In this document: in pieces, positions 8,538-33,821 of the stretch | Layout: the number at the start of each line of letters is the position of its first letter | How positions within the stretch are numbered: the first letter of the stretch is position 1 | Assembly (NCBI GenBank): GCA_018333535.1 | Contig: JAGXTA010000148.1 | Coordinates: 1-34,131 of the forward strand | Direction: 5' to 3' | DNA: 34,131 bases | DNA from: Deltaproteobacteria bacterium | GTDB taxonomy: Bacteria; Desulfobacterota; BSN033; UBA1163 | Notes under the pieces: generated by a model | Told to the model about the DNA's origin: nothing | What the model saw: the letters and a program-made list of their open reading frames with translations, nothing else | The model's database searches: none | Translations under genes and position numbers: made by a program

Positions 8538-10031
8538 TTGAAACTCGGCACAAAGTTGACTCTTTCTCTTTCTCTTATCATCCTTGTCGTGCTCTCGGGG
8601 TATGGCACTCTTCATATTTTATCCCGAAGGGACATCCTCATCAGAAAGATGAAAGCGGAGGTGAGGAGCATTGGCCGAACTTTAAAAGTTTCCCTCGAAA
8701 AGATCTCATTGCCAAGAGAGATGGAATATGTTCAAGAGCTGATCGATTCCGTTGAGGAGGACGAGAAAACCCTGGGGATCATCGTCTACCACACGGGGAA
8801 AAACCTCATCTTTAAATCCCGCTCATTAGAAGGGGATATCGAACCTTATTGGGATTTGATCAAAAAGTCCATTCAAGAGGATTTTTCTTATGAAGAGCTT
8901 GGAGTTTATAAAAAGGTTCATGTTTTTTCGTACACCTTTCCTCTCAAAGACAGAAGAGGTCGCAATATTGGCGGCGTTTCGATTCTTCAACGCACCTCTT
9001 TCGTAGAGGAGGATATTAAGAAAGCGGAATGGAGCGTCTTGATCACGATCCTTATCATGATAGGAGGGACATTGACATTGGTCCATTTTAGTACGAGAAA
9101 ATGGATTACCGAACCTATCTCTCAGTTGATGGGCGGAATCAAAAATATGGCGAAAGGGGATCTCCAGACAAGGATCGAGTTGAGAAGAGGGGATGAACTC
9201 TCTGAGCTGGGGCATGCGTTTAATCAAATGGCGGGCGATTTGAAAGAGGCCCAGGACCGGATTATCGAGGAGGCTGAGACAAAATTGAAATTAGAAAGGG
9301 ACCTCCGCCAGTCCGAGAAATTGGCCACGATCGGACAATTGGCCTCGGGACTGGCTCACGAGATCGGCACCCCTTTAAATATCATCAGTGGAAGGGTGGA
9401 ATTGGCAAAGAGAAAACTCGATGATAAAGAGGGGGTCCAAAAAAATCTGGACATCGTCCTCCAACAAACCGAAAGAATCACGAAGATCATTCAGCGACTT
9501 CTTGGGTTTGTCAGAAAAAAGAAACCTGAGCAAGGGAATCTAAATATCACCGCATTATTGGAGATGACGCTCGATTTTCTTGACCATGAAATTCAAAAAC
9601 AGAAAGTAAAGGTGGTCAGGGAAACGGAAGACCCTCTCCCCTCCGTGATGGGAGATCCAGACCAACTTCAGCAGGTCTTTTTGAACATCGTTCTCAATGC
9701 TATTCAGTCTATGCCTGAAGGCGGGACGCTTCATCTTTCAGCGTCAACCCAAGTGACCTCCAAGGAGGGCCTTGAAGATGGACAGCGTCGATATGTGGTG
9801 GTCAAGGTGCAGGATACAGGAATGGGAATGGAACGGGAAGTGATGGACAACATTTTCAACTCTTTCTTTACGACAAAAGAAAAAGACAAAGGGACTGGCC
9901 TGGGTTTGACCGTGAGCCAGGGTATTGTTCAGGACCATGAGGGATGGATTGAGGTAGAAAGCGAAACAGGAAAAGGTTCCTTATTTAAGATTTATCTTCC
10001 CTCTTATCAAGGTGAGGTGAAAAATGAGTGA
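8538..10031 (+). CDS. Membrane sensor histidine kinase of an NtrC-type two-component system
   Basis: Starts at TTG with AGGAGA at proper distance. A transmembrane segment at about 5-27, an extracytoplasmic sensor domain of about 140 residues, a second segment at about 168-188 and a HAMP domain (about 190-240) lead into a HisKA domain with phospho-acceptor H274 (LAHEIGTPLNIISG) and a HATPase domain with DTGMGM and GTGLGLTVSQGIV. The 8-bp overlap with the downstream sigma-54 response regulator shows the pair works together. The sensed signal cannot be told; the sensor domain is unlike a PAS domain at a glance. Confidence 0.94.
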   Translation: MKLGTKLTLSLSLIILVVLSGYGTLHILSRRDILIRKMKAEVRSIGRTLKVSLEKISLPREMEYVQELIDSVEEDEKTLGIIVYHTGKNLIFKSRSLEGDIEPYWDLIKKSIQEDFSYEELGVYKKVHVFSYTFPLKDRRGRNIGGVSILQRTSFVEEDIKKAEWSVLITILIMIGGTLTLVHFSTRKWITEPISQLMGGIKNMAKGDLQTRIELRRGDELSELGHAFNQMAGDLKEAQDRIIEEAETKLKLERDLRQSEKLATIGQLASGLAHEIGTPLNIISGRVELAKRKLDDKEGVQKNLDIVLQQTERITKIIQRLLGFVRKKKPEQGNLNITALLEMTLDFLDHEIQKQKVKVVRETEDPLPSVMGDPDQLQQVFLNIVLNAIQSMPEGGTLHLSASTQVTSKEGLEDGQRRYVVVKVQDTGMGMEREVMDNIFNSFFTTKEKDKGTGLGLTVSQGIVQDHEGWIEVESETGKGSLFKIYLPSYQGEVKNE

Positions 10032-11376
10032 GACCCTCCATAAAGTCTTGGTGGTGGATGATGATTTGGAGATGTGCGGGTTGCTCTCCGACGTTCTCAA
10101 AGGGGAGGGATTCTCTGCCATCACCACCCATGACAGTTTAGAGGCTTCAAAGATTCTCAAAAAAGAAGAGTTCGACATCCTCATCACCGATTTAAAGATG
10201 AAGGGACTGAAGGGTCTTGACCTCCTTGAAGAAACGAAACGGGTATCTCCTTTAACGCCGGTGATCATCATCACAGCCTTTGGGACGATTGAGTCGGCCA
10301 TCCAGGCGATGAAGATGGGGGCTTATGATTACATTACCAAACCCTTTCAAATGGATGAACTCATCCTGACGGTGAGAAAGGCCCTTGAAAATCGTTTTTT
10401 GAAAAAGGAGGTCGTAAGATTAAAAAAGGAGGTGGAGACCCGATATCATTTTCATCAGCTTATTGGGAAAAGCGCTTCCATGCAAAAAATCTACGACCTC
10501 ATTGAAAGGATTCGTGACAGTTCCATCAATGTTTTCATCACCGGAGAAAGCGGGACAGGCAAGGAACTGGCCGCAAAGGCGATCCACTACAGTGGCATCA
10601 GAAAGGGAGGCCCCTTCATCGCAGTGAATTGCGCAGCCATTCCTGAAACCCTTCTTGAGAGCGAGCTCTTCGGCTATAAGAAAGGGGCGTTCACCGACGC
10701 GAAATCGGACAAGAAAGGGCTTATTTTTGAAGCCAATGAAGGAACGCTTTTTTTGGATGAAATCACGGAGATGCCTCCTACGCTCCAGGCTAAGTTACTG
10801 AGGGTGCTCGAGGAGAGAGAGGTCAGGCCCCTCGGAGATACGACTTCCTATCCCATTGATTTGAGAATCATCTCCACTTCAAACTGTGATATCACATCAT
10901 CGATCCAGCAAGGTCGATTTCGTGAGGATCTCTATTATCGTTTGAAGGTGATCGATATCGACATGCCGGCCCTTCGGGAAAGAAGGGAAGATATTCCCAT
11001 TCTCGTTCAGCATTTCATCCAAAAATTCAGCAAAGAACTGAAGAAGGCTGTTTCAACCGTTTCAGGAGATGCCTTAAAAATTCTATTAAACTATCCCTGG
11101 CCCGGAAATGTAAGAGAATTGGAGAATATCATTCAGAGGGCGATCACCCTGAGCCAGCATGAAGTTATTTCTCCGGAGAATTTACCGGCGTCTATCATTC
11201 AAAAGGCAGATGAGAAATTGTTTGAGAAGGCGGTGGAAGAGAAGTTTACCCTGGATCAATTGGAGAAGGAATATATCAGGAGAGTTCTGATTGAAACAGG
11301 AGGGAATAAGTCTAAGGCGGCTGAAAGACTGGGCCTCGATCGAAAAACCCTCTATCGAAAACTCCAGGAAGAATAA
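10024..11376 (+). CDS. Sigma-54-dependent response regulator (NtrC family)
   Basis: Enhancer-binding activator of RNA polymerase with sigma-54. It has a receiver domain (1-120) with phospho-acceptor D56 (ITDLKMK), an AAA+ domain with Walker A GESGTGKE (174-181) and the sigma-54 contact loop GAFTDA (221-226), R-finger region and DLYYRL, and a Fis-type helix-turn-helix at the end (NKSKAAERLGLDRKTLYRKL). It overlaps the histidine kinase by 8 bp. It is the only sigma-54 activator in the window and is a candidate regulator of the three repeated sigma-54 promoters, the first of which is 1.3 kb downstream; that link is inferred. Confidence 0.96.
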   Translation: MSETLHKVLVVDDDLEMCGLLSDVLKGEGFSAITTHDSLEASKILKKEEFDILITDLKMKGLKGLDLLEETKRVSPLTPVIIITAFGTIESAIQAMKMGAYDYITKPFQMDELILTVRKALENRFLKKEVVRLKKEVETRYHFHQLIGKSASMQKIYDLIERIRDSSINVFITGESGTGKELAAKAIHYSGIRKGGPFIAVNCAAIPETLLESELFGYKKGAFTDAKSDKKGLIFEANEGTLFLDEITEMPPTLQAKLLRVLEEREVRPLGDTTSYPIDLRIISTSNCDITSSIQQGRFREDLYYRLKVIDIDMPALRERREDIPILVQHFIQKFSKELKKAVSTVSGDALKILLNYPWPGNVRELENIIQRAITLSQHEVISPENLPASIIQKADEKLFEKAVEEKFTLDQLEKEYIRRVLIETGGNKSKAAERLGLDRKTLYRKLQEE

Positions 11377-11581: not shown

Positions 11582-11860
11582 TTATCGATTAACCGATACT
11601 TTCCCCTCATTGTATTTATGAATCAACATTGAGATAAGGGATTGATACGGTATGCCCTCTTCAACTGCTTTTGCACGAATTTTCTTTAAATCTCGTTCAG
11701 TCATTCGGATATTGATCCGCTTCTGTTTGTTCAGGCTATAGCGGGCATATTCCTCGTATTGCTTTTTTTCTTTTTTAGTGAGGTCAGAAACCCATTCTTC
11801 ATTTTCAAGTGATTTTGCCAATTCCCTCTCGTCTTTATCCAAATATGCTGCTTTTTTCAT
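11582..11860 (-). CDS. CopG/BrnA-type antitoxin
   Basis: A 92-residue antitoxin candidate. The N-terminal half is charged and probably flexible and toxin-binding. The C-terminal half has a ribbon-helix-helix-like pattern: KRINIRMTERDLKKIRAKA followed by EEGIPYQSLISMLIHKY, typical of the CopG-like antitoxins paired with BrnT toxins. It overlaps the toxin gene by 4 bp (ATGA) and is the second gene of the pair, as in other BrnTA modules. It is expected to bind the pair's own promoter. Confidence 0.85.
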   Translation of the reverse strand: MKKAAYLDKDERELAKSLENEEWVSDLTKKEKKQYEEYARYSLNKQKRINIRMTERDLKKIRAKAVEEGIPYQSLISMLIHKYNEGKVSVNR

Positions 11861-12135
11861 TTTTTGCCTCCTAAGTACTTCTTTGTTGCTTTGCTGTTTG
11901 GTATTATTGTTTTCAAAAATATTCTTTCGTTATCCTCCACATATGGCACCGAATAAATATAATCTTCAATCTTTACCAGGAAAACTTTCTGATTCGGATA
12001 TTTTGCCGGATTTGGATGTTTTATCCGGTCAACCAAATCTCCTGATGCGAATGCCAATTCAACCTGTTCAAACGACACACCACGCACTTTCTTGAGCCTC
12101 TCGTTCTTCACATCATTCCAGTCAAAATATTTCAT
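11857..12135 (-). CDS. BrnT-family toxin
   Basis: A 92-residue protein with the BrnT pattern of an RNase-like fold: FDWNDVKNERLKKVRGVSF at the start, then FEQVELAFASGDLVDRI, a central strand KVFLVKIEDYIYSVPYV and a basic C-terminus ending in KATKKYLGGKK. It is first in a two-gene operon with its antitoxin (4-bp overlap) and follows a near-consensus promoter. The family members cut RNA in a ribosome-independent way; activity here is inferred by family. DUF4258-type toxins look similar and cannot be excluded. Confidence 0.8.
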   Translation of the reverse strand: MKYFDWNDVKNERLKKVRGVSFEQVELAFASGDLVDRIKHPNPAKYPNQKVFLVKIEDYIYSVPYVEDNERIFLKTIIPNSKATKKYLGGKK

Positions 12136-12481: not shown

Positions 12482-12620
12482 GATAACGTTTTTCAAAGAG
12501 CTAAAGTGTTACGAGGGTTTTTTTGACTGTGGGTGAGCGAAGTCCTGCGCCTTTAATTCAATTTCTGCACTGCCTCCCTCTTATTCTCTTCCTTTCTGGT
12601 TCAACTCAAGGATTGTCCCA

Positions 12621-12640
12621 TTTTGACACAGGCTGTTTCG
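12621..12640 (+). promoter_or_regulatory. Conserved upstream activator-site candidate, copy A
   Basis: TTTTGACACAGGCTGTTTCG, with an ACAG-G-CTGT dyad, is kept in all three copies. It is 99 bp upstream of the sigma-54 -24 element (12624 to 12723), a normal distance for an enhancer-binding protein. Confidence 0.6.
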
Positions 12641-12720
12641 TTTTGCCCCGCTTTTTCCCCTTTTACATTTTTATTGAGTTTTCAATGATTGAAATCTAAA
12701 GGGAATTTGGTTTTTAAACT

Positions 12721-12738
12721 TTGGTATCCTCTTTGCTC
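12721..12738 (+). promoter_or_regulatory. Sigma-54 (-24/-12) promoter, copy A
   Basis: TTGGTATCCTCTTTGCT has the invariant GG (12723-12724) and GC (12735-12736) exactly 10 bp apart. Transcription would begin about 12747, at the foot of the hairpin's 5' arm. Confidence 0.72.
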
Positions 12739-12747
12739 TTAGAAGAA

Positions 12748-12834
12748 ATGAAGGGGGCCCGGTCAGTTTGCCATCACCTCCTCTTGATGGATGTGAATTG
12801 AGCGGGAACTCTCTATGATCAGGCCTCCTTCAAT
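12748..12834 (+). ncRNA. Structured RNA hairpin, copy A (leader of pal or small RNA)
   Basis: The 5' arm GAAGGGGGCC..GGTC (12750-12764) pairs with GATCAGGCCTCCTTC (12817-12831). An inner 6-bp stem CCATCA/TGATGG (12771-12776 / 12785-12790) displays the loop CCTCCTCT. The string ATCACCTCCT (12773-12782) equals the 16S rRNA anti-Shine-Dalgarno tail. No T-run terminator follows, so the transcript may continue into pal. Family not recognised. Confidence 0.6.
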
Positions 12835-12862
12835 ATTATCAGGTAATCTTTGTAATCTTTAA

Positions 12863-12876
12863 TGACGTGTTCGTCA
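12863..12876 (+). promoter_or_regulatory. Small conserved hairpin before pal
   Basis: TGACG-TGTT-CGTCA is a perfect 5-bp stem. In copy C (33681-33694) the stem is TGATG/CGTCA, keeping pairing by a G-U wobble. It ends 11 bp before the Shine-Dalgarno of pal and might affect its translation. Confidence 0.4.
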
Positions 12877-12899
12877 CCCACATTGAAAGGAGGTTTATC

Positions 12900-13544
12900 A
12901 TGGAAAGGAGGTTTGTCGTGATTAGAAAGGGTTTCATCGTCATCCTCATCCTCTGCTTGGGCCTCATTTTGATAGGGTGTCCAAAGAAGACAGTCGTTAA
13001 AGAGGATCCATCTATAAAAAAGGCAGAAGAGGTGGCAATAGAAAGAGAGAAGGCGGAAAGGGCTGAAGCCGAACGCAGGGAAAAAGAAGCGAAGGAATTG
13101 GCTCGAATAAAAGAAGAAGAGGCTAAGAGAGAACCGGCCAAGAAAGAGTTCGAGGAGAGTTTAGTTGCCAAGAAGACTCCCGGAATTGAAGGAGAGGTCT
13201 TCGAAAGCAAAATGCTGAAGATGATTCATTTCCATTTTGACAAATATGATATTCGCCCTGAATATGCGGAGATTCTGAAGGAAAATGCAGCGGTGTTGAA
13301 AAAATTTCCTACAGTGAAGATTCAGATTGAAGGGCATTGTGATGAAAGAGGAACCATTGAATATAACCTTGCTCTTGGAGAAAGACGAGCGAACAGCACG
13401 AAAAGGTATCTCCTTTCTCTGGGCCTTCCTGGAGATCGTATCTCTACAATCAGCTATGGAGAGGAAAGCCCCTTAGACCCTGGTCATCGTGAGGAGGCAT
13501 GGGCAAAAAATCGAAGGGCTGCATTCATCATTTTATCCAAGTAA
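12900..13544 (+). CDS. pal: Peptidoglycan-associated lipoprotein Pal (OmpA-like domain)
   Basis: Outer-membrane lipoprotein that ties the outer membrane to peptidoglycan, usually in the Tol-Pal system. A signal peptide ends in the lipobox LIGC with lipidated C27, then a Lys/Glu/Ala-rich charged helix (about 35-100), then an OmpA domain (about 105-214) with HFHFDKYDIRPEY, IQIEGHCDERGT and RRANSTKRYL, including the Asp and Arg that hold diaminopimelate. I chose the ATG at 12900 (AAAGGAGG 7 bp before). A second identical Shine-Dalgarno followed by GTG at 12918 offers a shorter start with an equally good signal peptide. Tol genes are not in the window. It lies directly behind the copy A sigma-54 module. 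Confidence 0.94.
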   Translation: MERRFVVIRKGFIVILILCLGLILIGCPKKTVVKEDPSIKKAEEVAIEREKAERAEAERREKEAKELARIKEEEAKREPAKKEFEESLVAKKTPGIEGEVFESKMLKMIHFHFDKYDIRPEYAEILKENAAVLKKFPTVKIQIEGHCDERGTIEYNLALGERRANSTKRYLLSLGLPGDRISTISYGEESPLDPGHREEAWAKNRRAAFIILSK

Positions 13545-13875: not shown

Positions 13876-14070
13876 ATGCATTGAAAAGGAACAGGATTAA
13901 AAAGTATCCGATTAGGATGGAGTCTCGTCCTTTTTTTGAGTATTCTGCTTGGCTGCGCAACGACAAAAGAGATCGAGCAGACAAGGGTGGCGACCGGGGT
14001 GACGATGAAAGCAGCCCAGGAAGCTGCAAAGAAGTCGGAAGCCATCTTTGAGAAGAAATTGAAGAAATAA
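13876..14070 (+). pseudogene. Second small Lpp-like lipoprotein, interrupted by UGA at codon 3
   Basis: The ATG at 13876, with GGAAGGGAGG before it, reads Met-His-UGA and then stays open to TAA at 14068. Past the UGA the frame has a full lipoprotein signal (KGTGLKSIRLGWSLVLFL then SILLGC) and a mature part of 38 residues, starting CATTKEIEQTR and ending FEKKLKK, very like the upstream lipoprotein. No other ATG or GTG start precedes the signal peptide. A single base change (for example CGA to TGA) explains it. Suppression or Sec insertion cannot be ruled out, but no SECIS-like fold is evident. It is a paralogue of the gene at 13576. Confidence 0.6.
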
Positions 14071-14077
14071 ATATATC

Positions 14078-14172
14078 GAAGGAGGCTTGGTCAGAATGCC
14101 TTCACCTCACATCATCGAAATCGGATGTAATATCGATGGGAATCCCCCTTCTCTGGTCGATAGCTTCCTTCA
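14078..14172. repeat. Promoterless copy of the hairpin (copy D) overlapping the L,D-transpeptidase 3' end
   Basis: GAAGGAGGCTTGGTCAG (from 14078) and CTGGTCGATAGCTTCCTTC (to 14171) form the same outer arms as copies A-C, with GGCC changed to GGCT/AGCT in a pairing-preserving way, and TTCACCTC in the centre. No sigma-54 promoter or upstream site precedes it. Its minus strand is the last 22 codons of the L,D-transpeptidase gene. It lies between two convergent genes and may serve as a two-way terminator. Confidence 0.6.
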
Positions 14173-15043
14173 CTTTTTCAAAATCGACAAGATTCTTGAT
14201 CCCCTTCCCCCCCAATCTCTTAAGGGTAAACTGGAAAAAGTCAGGGACCCGATGATAGATGTCCTCATGGACTTCAACGAAGATGCGTCCATCTTTAAAC
14301 CCGATTTTAACGGGCTCATAGATGATATGGACAGGGGTTCCAACAGGAACCAAGGGATAGAGACTAACAATATCCTCAGGGTAAAGACGTATACACCCAT
14401 GGGTGACCAATCGCCCAACGGCCCATGGAAAATTGGTGCCATGAATTCCATACCCTCTTATGGACAGACCCAGCCAGTGAGAGCCGAGAGAATTGTCTGG
14501 GCCTGGAGGAATTGATTTTCGGCCTTCATATTTTTCCAGGAGAGAGAGGGGAATATGCCAGGTGGGAGAGACTCTCTTCTCTTTAATATGAAACCGTCCT
14601 ACTGGAGTGAAATTTTCAGTGACCCCTATTCCGATTGGAAATGTTTTGACCATGGATATCTTTTTGAAAAACAGATAAAGCCTCATCTCAGGAATATTGA
14701 TTACTATTCCGTCCCACTTCCCTTCGGGTAATACCCAGAAGGTTGGAATGATTAATTCCAATCCCTCGGGAGGAACCCATGGATCAAGGTCTTTATGAAG
14801 GATCTGAATTTCTGAAAAGCCAAGATCGAAGTCTCGGGCTATATCTAACAAAGTATCATCTTTTTGAACAATGTAAGTCTGAGGGGCACCGATGACGGTA
14901 ATTGCCTGGATATCGATTCCATAGGGAAGAGTTGGAAGCCGATAAGTGAATGCACCATTTCCAGCAAGCAGGGAGGAATGGAATAGGCCGACGAGAAGGA
15001 GGTTGATAAAAGTGATTGGTAATAGAATAGGGAATTTTTTCAT
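14102..15043 (-). CDS. L,D-transpeptidase with LysM domain (YkuD/ErfK family)
   Basis: Forms 3-3 cross-links in peptidoglycan or attaches lipoproteins to it. The 313 residues hold a signal peptide (1-28), a LysM domain (about 56-101, YIVQKDDTLLDIARDFD) and a YkuD catalytic domain (about 111-245) with HGTN at 201-204 and THGCIRL with nucleophile C217. A C-terminal part of about 70 residues follows. The classical SHGC motif is THGC here. It is convergent with two small Lys-ended lipoprotein genes and divergent from a DacA-like gene (69 bp), so a role in anchoring these lipoproteins is likely but inferred. The Shine-Dalgarno is weak. Its 3' end doubles as repeat copy D. Confidence 0.93.
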   Translation of the reverse strand: MKKFPILLPITFINLLLVGLFHSSLLAGNGAFTYRLPTLPYGIDIQAITVIGAPQTYIVQKDDTLLDIARDFDLGFSEIQILHKDLDPWVPPEGLELIIPTFWVLPEGKWDGIVINIPEMRLYLFFKKISMVKTFPIGIGVTENFTPVGRFHIKEKRVSPTWHIPLSLLEKYEGRKSIPPGPDNSLGSHWLGLSIRGYGIHGTNFPWAVGRLVTHGCIRLYPEDIVSLYPLVPVGTPVHIIYEPVKIGFKDGRIFVEVHEDIYHRVPDFFQFTLKRLGGKGIKNLVDFEKVKEAIDQRRGIPIDITSDFDDVR

Positions 15044-19712: not shown

Positions 19713-19755
19713 CTCAAATGTGGGATCATTGTTTCCTTAAGGTGCAATTGCCCCA

Positions 19756-19775
19756 TTTTGCCACACACTGTTTCG
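19756..19775 (+). promoter_or_regulatory. Conserved upstream activator-site candidate, copy B
   Basis: TTTTGCCACACACTGTTTCG matches the copy A and C sites except for CA in place of GG in the centre. It lies 100 bp before the -24 GG. Confidence 0.55.
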
Positions 19776-19856
19776 TTTTTCCCCTCTTTTTATCTTCTCT
19801 TTATTTTGTGATAGCCTCAACTAATGGAAATATGAATGGAATTTGTATTTATGCCT

Positions 19857-19874
19857 TTGGTATTCTTTTTGCTT
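19857..19874 (+). promoter_or_regulatory. Sigma-54 (-24/-12) promoter, copy B
   Basis: TTGGTATTCTTTTTGCT, GG at 19859-19860 and GC at 19871-19872, spaced by 10 bp. It points toward otsA. Confidence 0.7.
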
Positions 19875-19927
19875 TTCTTTTAATACTTAACCCTCAATCG
19901 TTACCCTGCATTTGCAGAGGTAAAGAT

Positions 19928-20023
19928 ATTAAAGGAGGCCTGGTCAGATTGGTTCACCTCCCAAACTTGAAATCGGATGTGATTTTGTCGGGACCCCCTC
20001 TCTGATTTAAGGCCTCCTTTAAT
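19928..20023 (+). ncRNA. Structured RNA hairpin, copy B (leader of otsA or small RNA)
   Basis: ATTAAAGGAGGCC (19928-19940) pairs with GGCCTCCTTTAAT (20011-20023) without mismatch. Relative to A and C a G-C pair became A-T on both arms, so pairing is kept by co-variation. The inner part GATTGGTTCA / TTGAAATC frames a CCTCCC loop. The 3' arm ends 44 bp before the otsA start. Confidence 0.6.
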
Positions 20024-20066
20024 TTTCTTAGAGGATGTTTGTCAAGGATTGATTAGGAAGCAATCG

Positions 20067-21530
20067 ATGAAAAAAAAGCATTTTCAGCGACTCATAAAGG
20101 ACAAATTGAAAGGGTATCACCTCTTCGTCCTCTCCAACCGGGAGCCTTATATCCACAACTGGAATGAGGATAGGATTGAATGTATCCGACCAGCAAGTGG
20201 GTTGACCATTGCTTTGGACCCCATGATGCGAGCTTGTGGAGGAGCATGGATTGCCCATGGAAGTGGCACTGCGGATCGCGATACCGTGGATAACAATCAA
20301 AAAGTGAGGGTTCCACCAGAGGATCCACAGTACGATTTGAAGAGGGTATGGCTTTCTAAAGAAGAGGAGGAGGGATACTATTACGGTTTTTCGAATGAGG
20401 CCCTCTGGCCGCTTTGCCACATTGCCTATACCCGCCCCGTTTTCAGACTATCCGACTGGGAATACTATAAAAAAGTAAATTATCTCTTTGCAGAAGCGAT
20501 TTTAGAAGAAATCGGCAACGAAAGACCATTGATCTTTATTCAGGATTATCATTTTGCATTACTTCCTCGGATCATCAAGGAGAGAAGACCAGATGCCTTA
20601 ACCGTTCAGTTCTGGCATATCCCGTGGCCCAATCCGGAGGCCTTTAGAATCTGTCCCTGGAAGAAAGAACTCCTCGAAGGCCTCTTGGGAAATAACCTGT
20701 TAGGCTTTCATATCCGTTACCATTGTAACAATTTTATTGATACGGTGGATCGAGAACTGGAGGCCAGACCTGACCGTGAGAGGTCTTCGATCGTCTATAA
20801 GGGTAAGACGACTTATGTCCGTCACTTCCCCATCAGTATCGATTTTGATGCCATTGACGAAAGCACAAGGAAGAGGGAAGTGGAAGAGGAGACGAAGAGG
20901 TTAAAAACCAAATACCATCTCTTTGATAAAATCATAGGGGTGGGTGTGGATCGCCTCGATTATACCAAAGGGATTCCAGAGAAATTTAGAGCGATTGATT
21001 TTTTTCTGGATCAAAACCCTGAATATAAAAAACGATTTGTGTATATCCAGTTGGGCGCGCCCAGCCGGGAACATATTCCAAGCTATAAGCAAATCAACGA
21101 TGAGATTGACGAATCGGTGGAAAGAATCAATTGGAAGCATCGAACAGAGCACTGGTCCCCGATCCTCTTTCTCCGAGAGCATATCCCTTTCCTTTCTATG
21201 CTGGCCTTCTATAAGATGTCCAATTTCTGTATGGTCAGTTCCCTTCACGACGGAATGAATCTGGTAGCAAAGGAATATATTGCGGCCAAGACCGATTCCG
21301 ATGGCGTCCTCATTCTCTCCAGGTTTACAGGCGCTTCGAGAGAGTTGAACGAAGCCCTGCTTGTCAATCCTTATGCGGCGGATGAATTTGCTCAAACCAT
21401 TAAGGAGGCTATCGAGATGACACCCGAGGAGGTGTCCCGGAGGATGAAGAAACTTAGGGAAATCGTTCGGGAAAGAAATATTTATCGTTGGGCCAACCAA
21501 ATCCTTACAAAAGCAATCCAGATTTCGTAG
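20067..21530 (+). CDS. otsA: Trehalose-6-phosphate synthase (GT20)
   Basis: Joins UDP-glucose and glucose-6-phosphate to trehalose-6-phosphate. The 487 residues show the GT20 landmarks: FVLSNREPY near the start, IQDYHFALLP, FWHIPWPNPEAFR, LLGFHIRYHCNNF, the nucleotide site VGVDRLDYTKGIPEK and SLHDGMNLVAKEY with LSRFTGASREL near the end. The N-terminal glycine loop is unusual (SGLTIALDPMMRACGGAWIA), and a related sugar-phosphate synthase activity cannot be excluded. The ATG at 20067 has AGGAAG 6 bp before it; a TTG at 20049 is the only alternative. It overlaps nothing and is followed 8 bp later by the phosphatase gene. Confidence 0.93.
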   Translation: MKKKHFQRLIKDKLKGYHLFVLSNREPYIHNWNEDRIECIRPASGLTIALDPMMRACGGAWIAHGSGTADRDTVDNNQKVRVPPEDPQYDLKRVWLSKEEEEGYYYGFSNEALWPLCHIAYTRPVFRLSDWEYYKKVNYLFAEAILEEIGNERPLIFIQDYHFALLPRIIKERRPDALTVQFWHIPWPNPEAFRICPWKKELLEGLLGNNLLGFHIRYHCNNFIDTVDRELEARPDRERSSIVYKGKTTYVRHFPISIDFDAIDESTRKREVEEETKRLKTKYHLFDKIIGVGVDRLDYTKGIPEKFRAIDFFLDQNPEYKKRFVYIQLGAPSREHIPSYKQINDEIDESVERINWKHRTEHWSPILFLREHIPFLSMLAFYKMSNFCMVSSLHDGMNLVAKEYIAAKTDSDGVLILSRFTGASRELNEALLVNPYAADEFAQTIKEAIEMTPEEVSRRMKKLREIVRERNIYRWANQILTKAIQIS

Positions 21531-33414: not shown

Positions 33415-33447
33415 ACTGCCCCTTCTATCCATTCCCCCATTGACCCA

Positions 33448-33467
33448 TTTTGCCACAGGCTGTTTCG
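33448..33467 (+). promoter_or_regulatory. Conserved upstream activator-site candidate, copy C
   Basis: TTTTGCCACAGGCTGTTTCG, differing from copy A by one base, again 99 bp ahead of the -24 GG. Confidence 0.6.
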
Positions 33468-33547
33468 TTTTGCCCCGCTTTTTCCCCTTTCGTATTTTTA
33501 TTGATTTTTCAATGATTGAAATCTAAAGAGAATTTGCCCTTTTAACT

Positions 33548-33565
33548 TTGGTATCCTTTTTGCTT
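33548..33565 (+). promoter_or_regulatory. Sigma-54 (-24/-12) promoter, copy C
   Basis: TTGGTATCCTTTTTGCT, GG at 33550-33551 and GC at 33562-33563, 10 bp apart. Start expected near 33574, at the hairpin foot. Confidence 0.72.
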
Positions 33566-33573
33566 TTAAAAGA

Positions 33574-33661
33574 ATTGAAGGAGGCCCGGTCGGTTTGTCA
33601 TCACCTCCTCATGGTGGGTGTGAATTGAGCGGGAACTCTCTCTGATCAGGCCTCCTTCAAT
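33574..33661 (+). ncRNA. Structured RNA hairpin, copy C
   Basis: ATTGAAGGAGGCC.GGTC (33574-33591) pairs with GATCAGGCCTCCTTCAAT (33644-33661), one mismatch and one wobble. Inner stem CATCA/TGGTG holds the loop CCTCCTCA; the G-U pair here stands for an A-U pair in copy A. ATCACCTCCT at 33600-33609 equals the 16S rRNA tail. Confidence 0.6.
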
Positions 33662-33743
33662 ATTATCAGTTAATCCTTCATGATGTGTTCGTCACCCCCT
33701 GTTTATACGGGACAGGCACGAACCATCAAAATAGTCGATAACC

Positions 33744-33768
33744 ATCCTCCCCCTCGACGGGGGAGGAT
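33744..33768. repeat. Perfect 10-bp inverted repeat
   Basis: ATCCTCCCCC-TCGAC-GGGGGAGGAT. No T-tract on either side; resembles the small palindromic repeats that lie around it. Confidence 0.6.
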
Positions 33769-33821
33769 TGAGATGGGGGTGGCCATCGCCTGTTCCCCCT
33801 CACCCCAACCCTCTCCCTCCA

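Follow-up and report, generated by a model that had tools for sequence, protein, structure and literature searches.

The stretch of DNA analysed here (34,131 nt; hereafter the window) is contig C148 of a MAG of 4.39 Mb in 192 contigs (G000). It encodes a sensor histidine kinase and a sigma54 response regulator, the likely activator, by prediction, of three modules that we call A, B and C, each with a conserved upstream block, a sigma54-type promoter and a hairpin (Table 1). A fourth hairpin, copy D, spans both meeting ends of two convergent genes, a small alanine-rich lipoprotein (lpp-like) frame and an L,D-transpeptidase (LDT) gene, the product of which carries the YkuD catalytic domain (PF03734, E = 1.3e-26, residues 113-240). 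The stop codon of the lpp-like frame (14068-14070) lies 7 nt ahead of the stem of D. This frame (..LSILLGCATTKEIEQ..KKLKK and stop) has no clear in-frame start codon, and a frameshift or an unusual start is possible; its counterpart in a relative, G007, is longer and alanine-rich. Elsewhere we noted a minus-strand pair of a CopG antitoxin and a weak BrnT toxin-like gene (11582-12135) between the response regulator and copy A, a GC-rich intergenic inverted repeat (CCTCCCCC..GGGGGAGG) downstream of copy C (33700-33800) and of its counterpart in G006, and a CRISPR-like array with the repeat GTCGCTCCCCGCGCGGGAGCGTGGATTGAAAC on another contig (G000:C147:4300-5300).

Table 1. Features of the window that bear on the hairpin copies
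Feature	Position	Strand	Remark
Sensor histidine kinase	8538-10031	+	
Sigma54 response regulator	10024-11376	+	likely activator of the modules (predicted)
Copy A, upstream block	12617-12649	+	CCCATTTTGACACAGGCTGTTTCGTTTTGCCCC, putative activator site
Copy A, sigma54-type -24/-12 promoter	12722-12736	+	TGGTATCCTCTTTGC, pattern only
Copy A, hairpin leader	12747-12840	+	precedes Pal/OmpA-like lipoprotein gene
Pal/OmpA-family lipoprotein gene	12867-13544	+	downstream of copy A
lpp-like lipoprotein frame, 3' part	about 13895-14070	+	ends ..KKLKK and stop
Copy D, hairpin	14078-14172		spans both gene ends
Copy D, outer stem	14078-14087 / 14162-14171		5' arm / 3' arm; T-rich tract beyond 3' arm
Copy D, inner stem	14102-14109 / 14123-14130		TCACCTCA / GGATGTAA
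LDT last 22 codons and stop within copy D	14102-14170	-	
L,D-transpeptidase (YkuD domain; ErfK/LdtE-like)	14102-15043	-	last 22 codons are the 3' part of D
Copy B, conserved upstream block	19752-19784	+	
Copy B, 26-nt flank	19905-19930	+	resembles lpp end beside D (16/26; 0/2000 shuffles)
Copy B, sigma54-type promoter	19858-19872	+	TGGTATTCTTTTTGC
Copy B, hairpin, otsA leader	19928-20029	+	otsA ATG at 20068
otsA-like trehalose-phosphate synthase	20068-21530	+	downstream of copy B
Copy C, conserved upstream block	33444-33476	+	
Copy C, sigma54-type promoter	33549-33563	+	TGGTATCCTTTTTGC
Copy C, hairpin	33574-33667	+	no gene directly downstream in window

The original prediction, made on the window alone, described the hairpin of copy D as the last codons of the LDT gene read on the minus strand, and this proved correct in its coordinates: the minus strand of D reads KEAIDQRRGIPIDITSDFDDVR and a stop, with 22 codons and the stop inside the hairpin. 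TTTTT stands beside the stem on the plus strand and a weaker T-rich side on the minus strand. A simple terminator scan called no terminator at D, the loop of which is long (about 65 nt), and a search for a sigma54 promoter upstream of D found none. Should the lpp operon mRNA end at D, it would be fully complementary to the end of the LDT transcript, which is an ordinary convergent overlap.

The relationship of D to the other copies was likewise confirmed. The minus strand of copy B reads KEALNQRGGPDKITSDFKFGR and a stop in a single frame with a one-codon gap relative to D, and a local alignment within the window gives 73% identity over 118 nt (E = 1.6e-16). Copies A and C had been said to align at the DNA level and to carry stops in this reading, and they do (KEA-stop-S-stop-RVPAQFT.. 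in A, KEA-stop-SERVPAQFT.. in C). Compared alone with D they match weakly (E about 0.001-0.003, local alignment); they are clear family members, however, because they match via B and via the copies of relatives: B and C match at E = 5e-8, and C matches the D copy of G007 at E = 1e-7. A and C are 90% identical across the whole module, including upstream block, promoter and hairpin, and B and C are 76% identical in the promoter part. The possibility that the similarity of A-C to D is no better than that of shuffled sequence can be dismissed, since models built without any D copy still detect D at E of about 1e-17. An nhmmer model of 14 hairpins lacking both D copies detected them at E = 9.7e-18 (D of the window) and 9.6e-20 (D of the relative), and a model from genera g3 and g4 alone, which are without this LDT gene, found D at E = 2.5e-17, A at 9e-10 and C at 1.6e-9. 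With both arms removed, the coding segment of D matched B, G016b, G014c and G009a better than any of 1000 shuffles, while G012a/b and G007b beat nearly all of 1000. From these comparisons we are very sure that copy D is homologous to the hairpins of A-C.

We surveyed the relatives with a 15-hairpin model, covering 17 genomes of the window's family f1 (Thermodesulfobacteriota; the window's genus is g1 and the sister family f2) and six class relatives outside f1. Ten of the 17 f1 genomes carry clear copies, at one to four per genome, whereas the six relatives outside f1 carry none; all those of G000 are on one contig. The hairpin of G011, with the same block and promoter, was found by a model that did not contain it. 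Weak extra matches in G006:C261, G010 and G015 and 32-nt matches in G013 were not counted as copies, and reverse-strand matches are due to the near-palindrome. The full arrangement, an upstream block CCCATTTTGCCACAnnnTGTTTCnTTTnCCCC (motif CCCATTTTGCCACA-N3-TGTTTC), TGGTATYCTTTTTGC some 70-85 nt further on and then the hairpin, is found in A-C of G000 and in G007, G016, G013, G005, G009 and G006. Promoters recognised by sigma54 have a -24/-12 pattern; TGGTATYCTTTTTGC agrees with it, and here the sigma54 assignment is one of pattern only. A search for orthologs of the response regulator at E <= 1e-150 found it in 12 f1 genomes but not in the six class relatives outside f1, and in G006, G016, G013 and G005 the module lies about 20-70 nt downstream of the orthologous gene. 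In G006 it follows the regulator directly, without an intervening CopG/BrnT-like pair.

Most copies stand 30-170 nt ahead of a co-directional start codon. The following gene encodes a Pal-like lipoprotein (A, and twice in G012) or otsA (B, G007b and G014c) and, by eye, an HflK-like protein (G005) or a response regulator (G009a); no gene stands right downstream of the hairpins in C, G007a and G006. The hairpins of G012 (before pal-like genes) and G014c (before otsA) lack the sigma54 promoter block, as D does, so that hairpin and promoter are separable; G012 lacks the response regulator as well. Block and promoter sites without a hairpin also occur in f1 genomes, for example ahead of a P-type ATPase-like gene (G016) and of HflK-like genes (G013 and G014). 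Judged from this context, the hairpin is likely a leader element of a sigma54 regulon. This would likely be a small, hitherto undescribed regulon (lipoprotein and trehalose genes, with peptidoglycan enzymes adjoining) with its own conserved leader. We found no description of this hairpin element in the literature.

The outer stem of the family has nine pairs, 98.5% paired, three of which show compensatory changes on both sides; the inner TCACYTCC/GGATGTGA pairing is common and shows no covariation. About 13-14 nt separate the -12 GC from the start of the stem in A, C, G007a, G006, G007b and G005, so that the hairpin would stand at the very front of the predicted RNA (in A, about 3 nt past the predicted transcription start); in B, G016b, G013b, G009a and G011 the stem sits deeper within the predicted RNA. 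Many copies have T-rich stretches beyond the 3' arm, which are poor in A and C. A role in cis as a 5' stabiliser or attenuator would fit most copies, and a free small RNA would fit C, G007a and G006. The claim that the copies became regulatory RNAs gains partial support from the sigma54-type promoters upstream and from the compensatory changes in the outer stem; expression and function are inferred from sequence.

Whether a gene end had been copied into an RNA or an RNA element had been built into the gene end was left undecided by the original prediction. We compared LDT C-termini from 30 named genome loci and 20 searched genomes. Their typical ending is a motif like EALxxxxGIPVDIT, after which the sequences stop or diverge; the LDT of the window ends in KEAIDQRRGIPIDIT followed by SDFDDVR and the stop, and that of G007 has SDFDHGR and the stop at this place. 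KEAIDQRRGIPIDIT aligns gaplessly with LDTs that have no hairpin. On this comparison, of the kind suggested earlier for the last 22 residues, KEAIDQRRGIPIDIT is ancestral LDT sequence and only the tail SDFDDVR is new. Within f1 this LDT is found at E <= 1e-20 only in G000 and G007, apart from a distant 440-aa paralogue; the LDT of the window clusters with four LDTs of the sister family f2 (support 90/89), a placement consistent with inheritance within the class and loss from most f1 genomes. Because the motif is kept in hairpin-free LDTs and the protein groups with f2, the DNA under the 3' half of the D hairpin is old LDT coding sequence. Over the last 23 LDT codons the window and its relative differ at 2, 1 and 5 sites in codon positions 1, 2 and 3, respectively.

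Independently of D, the three otsA leaders read as LDT in the antisense frame of D when scored with an HMM of 49 outgroup LDT C-termini (shuffles reaching the score: 0/500 for G007b, 4/500 for G014c and 6/500 for B), and so does G009a (14/500); for the g3/g4 leaders the combined p is 0.038. A gapless PSSM gives the G007b otsA leader 13.6 bits, and among the 68,162 six-frame positions of the window only the LDT itself ranks ahead of it. Leaders other than those of otsA show no clear outgroup-LDT signal, so that the link of A, C and most other copies to the LDT rests on their homology to B and D. Two of the otsA leaders also keep a remnant of the lpp end, G014c matching the relative's D at 21/26 positions (0/2000 shuffles) in addition to the match of B to D in Table 1. 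That a leader carries worn ends of both genes is most simply explained if it was copied from the lpp/LDT junction. The phylogenetic comparison of the copies suggested earlier was of less use: in an unrooted hairpin tree D stands beside the pal leaders of G012 and is not basal, and we rejected the tree as a means of rooting because the sequences are too short and the support weak. The ancestral LDT end, the LDT signal in otsA leaders and the lpp remnant favour the first of the two options, and it is quite probable that the leaders were copied from the lpp/LDT junction. D and the G007 leader may also have undergone gene conversion, which would likewise run from gene end to leader.

The reverse order, in which the RNA element came first and was then built into the LDT gene, supplying its last codons, would explain why the hairpin stands at the LDT end in two genomes only (G000 and G007) while leader hairpins are spread over three genera, and the non-ancestral tail could have arrived with the element. 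Yet such an RNA would have needed to encode the LDT end by chance, the LDT codons that underlie its 3' half align gaplessly with element-free LDTs, and the leaders bear the lpp-like flank as well; we regard this order as improbable. A similarly small chance is given to the view that A-C transcripts are trans-acting antisense RNAs that control the LDT mRNA by pairing with its 3' end. The earlier expectation that these transcripts would be partly antisense to this end is met by strong computed pairing, with predicted duplexes of -95 (A), -113 (B) and -101 (C) kcal/mol against about -55 for shuffles and a cofold gain of -25 to -41 against about -9. However, both partners fold stably alone (-36 to -43 and -39), the complementarity follows from shared ancestry alone, and eight of the ten hairpin-carrying genomes lack such an LDT (two of these eight being less than 90% complete), which argues against pairing as the conserved role. 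Antisense control of the LDT is thus unlikely to be the reason for keeping the element, and the modelled pairing would amount to no more than a side effect confined to G000 and G007.

Somewhat less doubtful, though still unlikely, are independent sigma54-dependent trans-acting sRNAs of the Qrr/GlmY kind, whose conserved TCACCTCC loop would pair with ribosome-binding sites. The sigma54-type promoter, the neighbouring sigma54 activator, the sibling copies and the three hairpins without a gene directly after them (C, G007a and G006) would suit such RNAs, as would the loop, which we take to match the 3' end of 16S rRNA. But in the consensus structure part of TCACCTCC pairs with GGATGTGA, and the motif descends from the antisense strand of the LDT stop region; A and C have only a poor T-tract, and most copies stand close before a co-directional gene. 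Neither the window at the gathering score nor copy B at E <= 1 matches any Rfam family, GlmY and Qrr included. Far less probable than any of these is a MITE- or REP-like mobile element inserted into leaders and into the end of a gene. The element has a suitable size (about 100 nt) and near-palindromic ends (ATTGAAGGAGGCC/GGCCTCCTTCAAT), and MITEs are known to yield sRNAs and to overlap ORFs (PMC5896051). Instead of numerous sharp-ended copies scattered over unrelated sites, however, we found one to four copies per genome, with those of G000 on a single contig, at positions tied to one regulon and to otsA and pal; the homology extends past the ends into the flanks, and A and C are alike across the entire promoter module.

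We therefore prefer the reading in which the junction was copied to sigma54 leaders, where the hairpin acts in cis, and give it a probability of about 0.7. Copy D would be the shared end of two convergent units, the lipoprotein operon on the plus strand and the LDT gene on the minus strand, with a terminator-like hairpin of which one arm and half of the loop are the last LDT codons. In an ancestor of f1 this junction (lpp end, hairpin and LDT end) would have been copied, first or most visibly ahead of otsA, and the copied hairpin would have become the 5' leader of transcripts from a sigma54-type promoter with a conserved activator block. Transcription from these promoters is presumed, as is control by the response regulator of the adjoining sigma54 two-component system. 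A and C would be later duplicates of that module. The leader hairpin, predicted to start no more than about 3 nt from the 5' end in A and C, would act in cis on the mRNA as a 5' stabiliser and/or as an attenuator with partial termination at the T-rich tract, and a short leader RNA (about 100 nt) could be released as a by-product. The more specific proposal, that regulatory leader RNAs of a sigma54 envelope-stress regulon were born by copying a convergent-gene hairpin and that their 3' half is the antisense of the last LDT codons, stands in our estimate at even odds. If true, one could trace here how a riboregulator arose from the wrong strand of a protein-coding gene. The origins of regulatory RNAs in bacteria are usually untraceable because of their fast change; here the direction can be argued because the source gene still stands beside its copies in two genomes and outgroup LDTs reveal the old part.

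In position and shape copy D resembles the bidirectional terminators between convergent bacterial genes, being a T-rich-sided hairpin between converging genes; unlike these, it has one arm and half of the loop coding for protein and its copies are reused in leaders. The Qrr RNAs of Vibrio are siblings under sigma54 promoters, one of them near the activator gene, and the window likewise has sibling hairpin copies with promoters of this type, though these lack an Rfam match and are at most candidates for separate transcripts with trans targets. In E. coli, QseE/QseF (GlrR), a kinase with a sigma54 response regulator, is linked with GlmY, rpoE, a lipoprotein and the envelope, and the sigma54 promoters that it activates include one of a small RNA (PMC6075780). 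The window is alike in its kinase and sigma54 regulator, its lipoprotein and envelope link and its sigma54-type promoters, and differs in that its hairpins have no Rfam relation to GlmY, are mostly gene leaders, occur in several copies per genome and probably originate from a gene end. The Coxiella QMITE is repeated palindromic DNA that yields sRNAs and overlaps ORFs (PMC5896051). The hairpin of the window is also repeated palindromic DNA overlapping an ORF; unlike QMITE, it is low in copy number, tied to one regulon and has an identifiable source in the end of a gene.
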